Assembly (NCBI GenBank): GCA_958295645.1
Contig: OY282361.1
Coordinates: 372,001 to 436,000 of the forward strand
Direction: 5' to 3'
Source: Longimicrobiales bacterium
GTDB taxonomy: Bacteria > Gemmatimonadota > Gemmatimonadetes > Longimicrobiales > Gaopeijiaceae
DNA length: 64,000 nt
In this document: piece by piece, positions 35,238 to 53,789 of the stretch
Layout: each line of letters starts with the position of its first letter
How positions within the stretch are numbered: the first letter of the stretch is position 1
The notes under the pieces: model-generated
What the model was told of the DNA's origin: nothing
What the model saw: the letters and a program-made list of their open reading frames with translations, nothing else
The model's database searches: none
Program-made: the position numbers and the translations under genes

Positions 35238-35441
35238 ATGTTCCCTTAAAGTCTGTCAAACGCCCGCAAATATCCAACCAGCAAGTTAACGTCGTCGCCT
35301 TCTCATGGTCAATCGCCCGACTCGGCAGGATGCCGCCGGCTCGCTCGCTTGACCGCCACGGCGGCAAAGGGCAGATTTGAGCTTCGGCAACTTTGGCAGA
35401 TGCCGCCAACGCAGTCTCCGCAGACGAACAGGGGCCGGGCC

Positions 35442-35774
35442 ATGGCGTTCAGCGTGCACAAACGGGACGGGATCGCGGTCGTCGAGGTGAGCGACAAGCT
35501 CATCGTGGCCAACCGCCAGGCGCTCAAGGACAAGGTGCTGGCCGAGGTCGGCGAGGGCGGCCGGAAGTTCGCCATGGACTTCTCGGGCACGACCTACATC
35601 GACTCCTCCGGTCTGGGCGTGCTCGTGAGCTTGTCCAAGAAGATCCGTTTCGAGGGCGGGCGCCTTCGCCTGTCGGGGCTCGACGACGATCTGCGCTCGC
35701 TCTTCGAGCTGACGAAGCTGGACACGCTCTTTCAGATCGACGACACGCTGGAGGAGTCGCTAGCGGCGTTCTGA
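35442..35774 (+). CDS. STAS-domain anti-sigma factor antagonist
   Basis: A 110-residue SpoIIAA/RsbV-type protein. The strand-turn YIDSSGLGVLVS holds the phosphorylatable serine (S55 or S56), and the four-helix STAS pattern is complete to the C-terminal helix. In the usual scheme a kinase phosphorylates this serine and a PP2C phosphatase removes it, switching binding to an anti-sigma factor or other partner. Both activities appear fused in the next gene. The ATG at 35442 gives the normal family length; an upstream extension to 35349 is unlike the family. Confidence 0.92.
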   Translation: MAFSVHKRDGIAVVEVSDKLIVANRQALKDKVLAEVGEGGRKFAMDFSGTTYIDSSGLGVLVSLSKKIRFEGGRLRLSGLDDDLRSLFELTKLDTLFQIDDTLEESLAAF

Positions 35775-35825
35775 GGGGCGGCCGTTCGGCTGCCTCCGGG
35801 ACGGCGCGCGAGCCGCGGCGACATC

Positions 35826-37427
35826 GTGGTCGTCAAGGGCGCTTCCCCGCCGGTCGCGGAATTCGTGGAATTCGTGGAGTTCGTCGAGGGCGTCGAGGGC
35901 ATCGAGCCTGCGGTGGACCATCTGACGAGTTGCTGCGCCGGGATGTGCAGCGATCCCAGGCGGCTCCGCTTCAACCTGCGCATCGGCCTCACCGAAGCCA
36001 TCTCGAACGCCGTTCTGTACGGCGGCAGCCGAGGAGACAAACGGGTTCGCGTGGAGCTGCGCGCCGTCCCAGGCGAGATACGGGTGCGCGTCGCCGACTC
36101 CGGCCAGGGATTCGACCCCGACACCGTGCCCGACCCCCGTCTGCCTGCCAACATCGCCAAGCCGTCCGGCCGCGGCATCTTCCTCATGCGCGCGTTGATG
36201 GACGAAGTGTCGTACGACGAGGAAGGAAATTCGGTGACGCTCGTCTTGCGGGATCCGTCGAGCGCCGCCGCCTCCGGCGCCGAACCGTCCGTCGCCTCGA
36301 GCAGCGAACCGTCGACCGCCCCCAGCAGCGAGCCGTCCGCCGCCTTCAGCGCTGCCGAGACCGACGAGGCGTCTCCCCTGCCGCGCTTGCCGGAAGCCGC
36401 GGTGGCCACGCTGGAAGACTTCCGTAGCGCGCTCGAGATGGACGTTCGCGCCTGGCAAGTTGGGGAGTTGCACCGCCAGCTTGTCGTCTCTCCGCTCGAA
36501 TCCGAGGGGCCGTTTCGACCGTCCGAATCGTTTCAGGTCGAAGTCGCGGAGGGATCCGTCCTGGAAGTCGAAGTCGCCTGTCGCGACGGCCGGAGCAGGT
36601 CCGTCGGCCTTCTGGCGGCGACGTTGCGGCGAACCTGCGAGCTGGCCCGCGTGGCCGAAGACCAGATGTCTCGCGAGATGCAGTTGGCGCACGATCTGCA
36701 ACTCAAGCTCATTCCCCCCATTCCCTCGGTCGCCGGCATGGAAGCCTCCGCCCGCGTGGTCCCGAATGCGTCGGTGGGCGGCGACTTCTACCAAGTGCTG
36801 GCGCTCTCGGAAGGGCGGATCGGCGTGATGATCGGCGACGTCTCAGGACACGGCCTGTCGGCCGCCCTGATCATGGCGCACGCCATCAGCGCGGCGGCCA
36901 TCTCCGCCGAGGGCGGCGCTCGCCCGGCCACGGTGCTGGAGCGCATCCACAACGCCATCGGCGACGAGCTGGAGTCCACCGAGATGTTCGTGACGCTCTT
37001 CTACGGCGTGCTCTCGCCCGAGGAGCCCGAGCTGGTCTATTCCAACGCCGGCCACCCCCACGCCTTCCTGATTCCCGGCGCCGGAAGCCCGCAGCGCCTG
37101 GGCGCCACCGATCCCCCCATGGGCATCGCTCCCGTGCCCTTCGCCGAGGCCGAGGCCCCGTGGCGCTCCGGCGAGGATCTCCTCCTCCTCTTCACCGACG
37201 GCCTTTCGGACACGCTGGCCTCGCGCCGCCGCCGAAACGGCGAAGCACGGGTCGTGTCCATGGCCGCCCAGCACCGAGACCAGCCGCCCGAGCGCGTCCT
37301 GGAACGCCTGTTCGGCATGCGCGCCCCCGCCCGCTCCTTGCTGGCGGACGACCGAACCGCGTTGCTGGTGCGCACGGCCCGGCTGGACGGAGGAGATCGT
37401 TCGCCCTCGCAAGCGGACGCCGCGTGA
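35826..37427 (+). CDS. Fused RsbW-like HATPase kinase and PP2C/SpoIIE phosphatase
   Basis: A 533-residue two-domain signalling protein. The N-terminal HATPase domain (about 28-140) has the N-box TEAISNAVLYG with E56 and N60, G1 DSGQGFD near 90-96, and GRGIFLM. A Ser/Pro/Glu-rich linker spans about 142-190. The PP2C-type domain (about 290-515) has GGDFYQV, GDVSGHGLS, SNAGHPHAFL and FTDGL. It can thus both phosphorylate and dephosphorylate a STAS partner, most simply the protein encoded 51 nt upstream. No sensor or membrane segment is obvious. The start is GTG at 35826, and rsmA overlaps the stop by GTGA. Confidence 0.9.
   Translation: MVVKGASPPVAEFVEFVEFVEGVEGIEPAVDHLTSCCAGMCSDPRRLRFNLRIGLTEAISNAVLYGGSRGDKRVRVELRAVPGEIRVRVADSGQGFDPDTVPDPRLPANIAKPSGRGIFLMRALMDEVSYDEEGNSVTLVLRDPSSAAASGAEPSVASSSEPSTAPSSEPSAAFSAAETDEASPLPRLPEAAVATLEDFRSALEMDVRAWQVGELHRQLVVSPLESEGPFRPSESFQVEVAEGSVLEVEVACRDGRSRSVGLLAATLRRTCELARVAEDQMSREMQLAHDLQLKLIPPIPSVAGMEASARVVPNASVGGDFYQVLALSEGRIGVMIGDVSGHGLSAALIMAHAISAAAISAEGGARPATVLERIHNAIGDELESTEMFVTLFYGVLSPEEPELVYSNAGHPHAFLIPGAGSPQRLGATDPPMGIAPVPFAEAEAPWRSGEDLLLLFTDGLSDTLASRRRRNGEARVVSMAAQHRDQPPERVLERLFGMRAPARSLLADDRTALLVRTARLDGGDRSPSQADAA
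35859..35903 (+). repeat. Five 9-nt tandem repeats coding (EFV)3-EGV-EGI
   Basis: GAATTCGTG occurs twice, then GAGTTCGTC, GAGGGCGTC and GAGGGCATC, at exact 9-nt steps. They encode residues 11-26 or so at the N-terminus of the kinase-phosphatase fusion, just ahead of the HATPase fold. The first two units are identical, consistent with recent slippage. Confidence 0.85.
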
Positions 37428-38266
37428 ACAAGCACCGCGCCAAGCGCTCGCTGGGACAGAACTTTCTCGTGTCCGCCCCCGTCCAGCGGAAGATCGTCGC
37501 GGCCTGCGGCCTCCGGGAGGGCGAGCAGGTTCTGGAGATCGGCCCGGGCCGCGGCGAACTCACCCGTCACTTGGCCGCGACCGGGGCGCGCGTGGTCGCG
37601 GTGGAACTCGACGACGCTCTAGCGGCGAGGCTACGCGCCGCCTACCGGGACCATCCGGCGGTGACGATCGTTCACGGGGACGTGCTCGAGGAGGACTTGG
37701 CGGCTCTGACCGACTGCTGGCCGGCGACGCGGGTAGTCGGGAACATCCCCTACAACATCACGACGCCGATCCTCTTTCGCTTGCTCCGGCCGCCTTGCCC
37801 GGCGGACATCGTGCTCATGGTGCAGGCCGAGGTTGCGCAGCGGATGCTGGCCGCGCCCGGCGGCAAGACCTACGGCGCCCTCTCCGTCGGAGTTGCCCTC
37901 CATGCGCGCGCCAGTCGTCTCTTCCCGGTGCCCAGAGGCGCGTTTCGCCCCACGCCGAAGGTGGACTCCGTGGTGGTTCGCGTCGTGCCTCGGTCGCCCG
38001 TGGCGCTGGCCCCTGCGGAGGCCGCCCGCGTGCGCACTCTGGTGCGCGCCGCCTTCTCTTGGCGCCGAAAGCAAATCGGCACGATCCTCCGATCCCATCC
38101 CGATCTGCGGCTCCCGCCGGAGAAGGCGACCGCAACCTTGCAGGCGCGATCCCTCGATCCAAGGCTGCGCCCGGAGCAGCTTGCCCCAGCGGACTTCGTG
38201 GCCTTGAGCGCCGTCCTCCCGGAAGCCGTGCCCCCAGGCGAGCTCCTGGAGCGCCAGCCCGCCTGA
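37424..38266 (+). CDS. rsmA: 16S rRNA dimethyladenosine transferase RsmA/KsgA
   Basis: Dimethylates two adjacent adenines near the 3' end of 16S rRNA. The 280-residue protein starts KHRAKRSLGQNFLV, then shows the SAM motif LEIGPGRGELTRHLA and catalytic NIPYNITTPIL, with the C-terminal helical domain ending in LQARSLDPRLRPEQL. The GTG at 37424 is fixed by the GTGA overlap and the standard N-terminus. Confidence 0.95.
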   Translation: MNKHRAKRSLGQNFLVSAPVQRKIVAACGLREGEQVLEIGPGRGELTRHLAATGARVVAVELDDALAARLRAAYRDHPAVTIVHGDVLEEDLAALTDCWPATRVVGNIPYNITTPILFRLLRPPCPADIVLMVQAEVAQRMLAAPGGKTYGALSVGVALHARASRLFPVPRGAFRPTPKVDSVVVRVVPRSPVALAPAEAARVRTLVRAAFSWRRKQIGTILRSHPDLRLPPEKATATLQARSLDPRLRPEQLAPADFVALSAVLPEAVPPGELLERQPA

Positions 38267-38321
38267 ACCGCGCTCTGGACGGAACCAGTCTTGGCGACGG
38301 TGCGACGTGTTAGCTTCCCCC

Positions 38322-38339
38322 TTGTGAACAATTTCACAA
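38322..38339. promoter_or_regulatory. Rex operator overlapping the rex start codon
   Basis: The 18-mer TTGTGAACAATTTCACAA is a perfect inverted repeat (TTGTGAA-CAAT-TTCACAA) matching the known Rex operator form TTGTGAAnnnnTTCACAA. The GTG proposed as start of rex lies inside the left arm at 38324-38326. Binding here would block initiation of rex transcription or early elongation, so autorepression relieved by NADH is likely. No other full match was noticed in the window. Confidence 0.85.
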
Positions 38340-38992
38340 ACCGCATTCCGGACGCGACGGTGCGCCGGTTCTCCTTGTACCTGCGGTTGCTGGAGGAGTT
38401 CGAGCGGGCGGGGAAGGCGACGACTGCCAGCACGGCGCTCGCGGAGCACACGGGCGCCACGGCGGCGCAAGTGCGCAAGGATCTCCAGCACCTGGGCTCC
38501 ATGGGGAAGCGCGGGCTCGGGTACTCGGTCCCGGAACTCGTCGGAGTTCTGCGACGCACGCTCGGACTGGACACGAGTTGGCGCGTGGCGTTGGTGGGCG
38601 CGGGCCGGATCGGCAGGGCGCTCTTCGAATACGGCCTCTTTCGGCAGCGGGGATTCGTCATCACGACCGTGATCGACGCCGATCCCGCCAAGGTGGGCAG
38701 GAAGCTGCGGGACGTGCGGATTCGGAGCAGCGAGGAACTGGAGCGGGCGCTGCTGGAAGACCGGACGGACTTGGCGATCCTCGCGGTGCCGGCCGCGGCG
38801 ACACAGGAAATGGCGGACCGGGTCGTCGGCGCGGGCGTCAAGGCGGTGCTGAACTACGCGCCGGTGCAGCTCCGGGCGCCGGCCGGCGTGACGCTGCGTC
38901 ACGTCAGCATGCTCGTGGAGCTGGAGAGCCTGTCCCACGCCCTCGTGCGGCTGCGGCGACATCCCCCGGCGCCGTCCTCCGGAGCCTCATGA
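38324..38992 (+). CDS. rex: Redox-sensing transcriptional repressor Rex
   Basis: Rex senses the NADH/NAD+ ratio and releases DNA when NADH is high. The winged helix covers about 5-80 (IPDATVRRFSLYLRLLEEF, AAQVRKDLQHLGSMGKRGLGY). The Rossmann domain has ALVGAGRIGRAL and LNYAPVQLRAP. The GTG at 38324 is chosen because Rex proteins usually start a few residues before IPxAT. A TTG at 38291 would add 11 residues and put the operator inside the gene. There is no clear ribosome site, so a leaderless transcript is possible. The stop overlaps the exonuclease start. Confidence 0.93.
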   Translation: MNNFTNRIPDATVRRFSLYLRLLEEFERAGKATTASTALAEHTGATAAQVRKDLQHLGSMGKRGLGYSVPELVGVLRRTLGLDTSWRVALVGAGRIGRALFEYGLFRQRGFVITTVIDADPAKVGRKLRDVRIRSSEELERALLEDRTDLAILAVPAAATQEMADRVVGAGVKAVLNYAPVQLRAPAGVTLRHVSMLVELESLSHALVRLRRHPPAPSSGAS

Positions 38993-53668: not shown

Positions 53669-53789
53669 GAATGGGTAATCGTGTAGGAGATGCTGCTTCC
53701 GGCGATGCTGATTGTGAACGACTTCTCCACGGTGTAAGTGCCACGGAGCGTGCCGATCCTCGGGTTGCTGGAACCTAAGGTACCAAGCC

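Follow-up and report, generated by a model that had tools for sequence, protein, structure and literature searches.

A Rex operator that contains the predicted start codon of rex in a Longimicrobiales bacterium

Results

The rex locus and its operator

The window (the whole 64,000-nt stretch of DNA analysed here) carries a rex gene on the + strand at 38324..38992, with a predicted start codon, GTG at 38324-38326, that lies inside a Rex operator and in frame with the Rex reading frame ending at 38992. Translation from this GTG yields a protein of 222 amino acids that scores 228.2 bits against the Rex equivalog model NF003992 (cut-off 226 bits) and that also exceeds the cut-offs of NF003993 and NF003995. 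Its N-terminal winged-helix DNA-binding domain (PF06971) spans residues 8-54, the Rossmann NAD(H)-binding domain (PF02629) spans residues 84-181, the VGAGRIG motif is present, and the protein matches by sequence the Rex structures 1xcb, 3ikt and 2vt2. Only 57 nt separate the rex GTG from the end of the preceding gene on the same strand, rsmA/ksgA (16S rRNA dimethyladenosine transferase; 37424..38266), which has a probable GTG start in a frame open from 37160 and was assigned to its family by eye from sequence motifs. A similar gene end is visible upstream of rex in relatives, e.g. at locus L060. Just upstream of ksgA-rex, at 35349-37427, translations read by eye revealed a STAS-domain anti-anti-sigma-like protein and, after it, a fusion of an RsbW-like kinase with a PP2C-type phosphatase.

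On the + strand, positions 38322-38339 read TTGTGAACAATTTCACAA, a perfect Rex operator (ROP; listed without strand). It is a 7-4-7 inverted repeat with TTGTGAA and TTCACAA as its 7-bp arms, both free of mismatches, and CAAT as its spacer. The initial annotation had described an exact 18-bp Rex site with the GTG in its left arm, and this description holds: the operator encodes residues 1-5 of Rex (VNNFT) together with the first base of codon 6, and it occupies the same register in 19 further species. Both arms agree with the Staphylococcus aureus Rex consensus TTGTGAAW4TTCACAA (PMC2883068), the spacer differing by one C, and the operator fully fits the Streptomyces coelicolor consensus TGTGAACNNNTTCACA in the form in which PMC5355995 quotes it. 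At up to three mismatches TTGTGAACAATTTCACAA was the sole match in the window, where dinucleotide shuffles gave an expectation of 0.01. A scan of viral contigs for the exact 18-mer returned two matches.

Rex as the likely binder of the operator

The central 16 bp of the palindrome exactly match the CRP consensus TGTGA-N6-TCACA, as they would in any Rex operator of this form, so the element could be read as a CRP/FNR-type site and not a Rex operator. A promoter regulated in this way would call for a regulator with a cNMP-binding domain in the genome. The genome of the window (G000; 2.89 Mb in one contig) encodes no such domain (PF00027), which was found in 10 of 14 control genomes, while it encodes exactly one Rex-type DNA-binding domain. 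In addition, the outer TT/AA and the inner AA/TT pairs of the operator are conserved, and nearly all relatives have the operator beside rex. We therefore regard the CRP/FNR reading as highly improbable.

The initial annotation had proposed a genome search for the same 18-mer to define the regulon. The genome of the window contains three strong operators: the one at rex, one at 735863 before the ATP synthase genes (families PF09527 and PF00119) and one at 785996 before nuoA-nuoB (PF00507 and PF01058). Near-perfect operators outside rex were thus confined to the atp and nuo operons, which form a standard Rex regulon; in Streptomyces, Rex classically targets complex I and ATP synthase (PMC5355995). 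Given a single Rex, the lack of any cNMP-binding domain in the genome and the position of the other sites at atp and nuo, Rex, as first annotated and as the comparison bears out, is the only candidate binder; it likely binds its own operator, making rex its own target. A window match at 53712 with two mismatches was set aside, since comparable matches arise in shuffles.

We also considered whether the three sites represent a shrunken regulon. This was rejected, because a survey of 58 genomes (that of the window and those of relatives) identified genome G024 (OX639991.1) as the outlier: it contains 30 operator-like sites at no more than one mismatch (loci L247-L279; none with a reversed-pattern control), compared to 0 to 6 in each of the other 57 genomes. 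The sites in G024 adjoin genes as varied as a glycosidase, a peptidase and an ABC permease, and no CRP/FNR protein was found in this genome. Its Rex regulon may be much expanded, or a further regulator may recognise the same site. At three of its loci a GTG start seems to lie inside the operator as well (L250, an ABC-2 permease; L261, a gene after AGGAGG; L272, a CoxM-like N-terminus).

The predicted start codon of rex

Of the 58 genomes surveyed, 56 encode Rex, and 35 allowed both the N-terminus and the operator to be located. In 33 of these 35 genomes the operator ends 26-97 nt upstream of the first conserved codon, and in the remaining two, the genome of the window and G024, 5 nt upstream of it. 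In a further scan, covering 84,980 species, we looked for Rex operators no more than 30 nt away from a Rex N-terminal motif and obtained 97 matches, about 80 of which were true rex genes as judged by translation; as exact half-sites and a set N-terminal motif were required, diverged rex genes were missed and the figure is no census.

The operator GTG is the start in 19 species beside that of the window, with N-termini such as VNEFT, VNDFT or VNTFT, giving 21 start-in-operator loci in 20 species (one species is represented twice, by L018 and L065). At 18 of the 21 loci, all except the window and a pair of nearly identical loci, no ATG, GTG or TTG other than this GTG is available downstream of the last in-frame stop; this stop is in many cases formed by the TAG or TAA of the -10 box. 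The conserved Ile/Val codon lies at a distance of either 21 or 36 nt from the GTG in every case, the 15-nt insertions having occurred in two separate subclades with preservation of the frame, whereas leadered relatives show all three phases for the distance between the operator GTG and the conserved codon. Conservation across the clade and its being the sole possible start at most loci thus bear out GTG 38324 as the start codon.

These data also bear on a different reading of the locus, in which most rex transcription would originate at a greater distance upstream, through ksgA read-through or at an unseen promoter, with translation from TTG 38291 or GTG 38300 and with the operator acting as a roadblock within the coding sequence. 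In the window the frame is indeed open up to TTG 38291, and ksgA ends close by. This openness results from one extra base after the -10 element, and the clade does not share the N-terminal extension: in 18 of its 21 members either an in-frame stop closes the frame or no start codon precedes the operator. TTG 38291, which the initial annotation had named as the alternative start, moreover constitutes the first three bases of TTGGCG, a motif found at the -35 position in relatives. With a sole GTG start at 18 of 21 loci and insertions that preserve the frame, translation from TTG 38291 is strongly disfavoured, and we consider this reading as a whole improbable.

Predicted promoter and leaderless message

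A predicted -10 element, TAGCTT (38311..38316, + strand), lies 7 nt before the GTG; it aligns in 19 relatives and its position is enriched in the genome. The clade carries TAGCTT, TAACTT or CAGGTT at this place, spaced from the GTG by 6 nt, or by 7 nt in the window and L052. In 15 of 19 relatives TTGACG, TTGACA, TTGGCG or TTGCGG occurs 16-18 nt upstream of the -10 element (TTGGCG or TTGACG in L047, L052, L058, L066, L067, L114, L125, L126, L135 and L142). The -35-like TTGGCG of the window (38291..38296, + strand) is separated from the -10 element by 14 nt, in contrast to the 16-18 nt of relatives with a clear -35, so that the promoter must rely on an extended -10 (TGT-TAGCTT) or on another element. 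The TGT at 38308-38310 (+ strand), which directly precedes TAGCTT, may compensate for the short spacer.

Transcription starts about 7 nt after a -10 element and should thus begin at the GTG. The GTG is preceded by GTGTTAGCTTCCCCCTT, which contains no Shine-Dalgarno sequence. The locus hence combines two features of leaderless genes, a -10 element at a distance of 6-8 nt from the start codon and the lack of a Shine-Dalgarno sequence, and the conserved -10 geometry of the clade supports the leaderless message that the initial annotation had proposed from the invisible ribosome site.

For comparison, we surveyed start spacing in 1.26 Mb of stretches from the genome of the window. TANNNT occurred 6-7 nt before candidate ATG codons 16 times as against 3.6 expected (approximately 1.8 per distance elsewhere), while for GTG candidates alone the -10 spacing was not enriched, presumably as in-frame GTGs are for the most part internal codons. 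The genome-wide test accordingly supports leaderless ATG genes only and leaves leaderless GTG starts less certain. Shine-Dalgarno counts near candidate starts were too noisy for classing genes.

Transcription starts often scatter by a few bases, and the 7-nt spacing places the usual +1 at 38322-38324. The message could on this account have a short leader, starting several bases upstream of the GTG (38317-38322), with the GTG translated without a Shine-Dalgarno sequence and the circuit otherwise the same. A leader of 1-5 nt would be functionally leaderless, and the fixed spacing of 6-7 nt across 20 species argues for selection on a +1 at the GTG; we thus give the short leader very little probability.

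A model of autoregulation and its relation to known systems

Taken together, we propose that rex, responding to NADH/NAD+, probably represses itself through an operator that covers both its transcription and its translation start on a leaderless message. A sigma-70-type promoter with TAGCTT as -10 element would start transcription at, or within 1-2 bases of, GTG 38324. At high NAD+, a Rex dimer bound to 38322-38339 (about -2 to +16) would block open-complex formation or promoter escape; NADH would release Rex, and Rex would then be made when it is next needed for re-repressing the regulon. The transcript start at the GTG and the binding of Rex are here predicted from the sequence, and the mode of repression and the NADH response of this Rex are presumed from its family. 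For acuR, GTG was shown to initiate poorly when the message has no leader (PMC3017554). By the same token weak translation is predicted for a leaderless rex message with GTG, which would suit a repressor.

On a leaderless message, the same palindrome would form a 5'-terminal RNA hairpin, GUGAA-CAAU-UUCAC (38324..38337, + strand; 5 bp, -3.9 kcal/mol), whose stem includes the start codon. The element might therefore act twice, as a DNA operator over +1 and as an RNA hairpin that hides the start codon and keeps Rex low even when derepressed, so that one 18-bp element would set both transcription and translation of the sensor. We view this double role as rather doubtful. The hairpin follows from the operator palindrome and so is no independent evidence of function, its folding z-scores in the window were unremarkable, and as the arms are fixed by Rex, covariation cannot serve as a test.

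Rex self-regulation as such is known. The Streptomyces rex-hemACD system resembles that of the window in repressor family, operator consensus (TGTGAACNNNTTCACA) and the core targets nuo and atp, but there Rex protects -39 to -17, over the -35 and not over +1 (PMC5355995), whereas the operator in the window covers the start codon and the predicted +1. A layout close to our proposal is found at S. avermitilis cydA1, where the Rex footprint runs from -3 to +25 and so includes the transcription start and the region after it (PMC5355995); cydA1 is, however, a target gene and not rex itself. Self-repressors with leaderless messages are likewise known. The mRNA of acuR in Rhodobacter sphaeroides (acuR-acuI-dddL) begins exactly at the start codon, and the operator overlaps the promoter (PMC3017554), much as proposed for rex. 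AcuR differs in being an acrylate-responsive TetR-family repressor with an operator upstream of the ATG that does not extend over the first codons, and in having been proven experimentally. According to the citations of them in PMC3017554, lambda cI and tetR of Tn1721 are further self-regulating repressors made from leaderless messages; they belong to other families and differ from rex in ligand and operator layout. Within a collection of open-access papers we found no report of a Rex operator containing the rex start codon, nor of a leaderless rex. What appears to be new is hence the operator that contains the rex start codon, a compaction of the autoregulatory circuit in which the same 18 bp have to accommodate repressor binding and the start of transcription and also to supply the start codon and the opening codons of rex itself.

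Evolutionary origin of the overlap

In a tree of 100 Rex proteins, all 21 start-in-operator loci form one clade (support 100/97), recovered in all bootstrap trees, and by this tree the overlap of operator and start arose once. The clade corresponds to one branch of mostly metagenomic Gemmatimonadota. The window is its deepest branch, and the leadered G012 and G010 are successive outgroups. The C that follows the left operator arm is invariant throughout the clade; we dropped it as a sign of coding constraint, since the close outgroups have the same C.

Relatives with a leader have the operator immediately after the -10 box or overlapping it, e.g. TTGACG-17-TATC TTGTGAAC in L026, so that the transcription start already lies inside the operator. 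The part of the initial annotation that placed operators upstream thus needs amending in one respect: relative to the promoter, the operator of relatives is not far upstream but just downstream of the -10, over the transcription start. With an ancestral transcription start in the operator, the clade seems to have lost its leader and to have recruited the operator GTG as start codon. The arrangement thus likely originated by loss of the 5' leader, and on this comparison its peculiarity is leader loss and not relocation of the operator. Together with its leadered outgroups, the clade offers a natural series for studying how leaderless genes arise and what they cost, and it provides comparative evidence for leaderless messages in the Gemmatimonadota, a phylum whose translation has received little experimental study.

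Operators close to the rex start were also seen in two other clusters. One comprises 21 Gemmatimonadota loci, mostly soil MAGs according to sample names, in which the ATG overlaps the last operator base or lies one base after it; at several of the soil MAG loci (L048, L057, L062, L070, L079, L092 and similar ones) AATAAT or AATAGT within the operator is a possible -10 element. The other belongs to Syntrophaceae and related deltaproteobacteria (L053, L054, L059, L063, L077, L084, L115 and L123). Operators that crowd the rex start thus recur. In the Syntrophaceae cluster the rex operator is TTGTGAAAGGAGTCACAA (or with AAGGGG), its spacer has the Shine-Dalgarno-like AAGGAG and a TTG start follows just after the operator, which may here serve the repressor and the ribosome at once.
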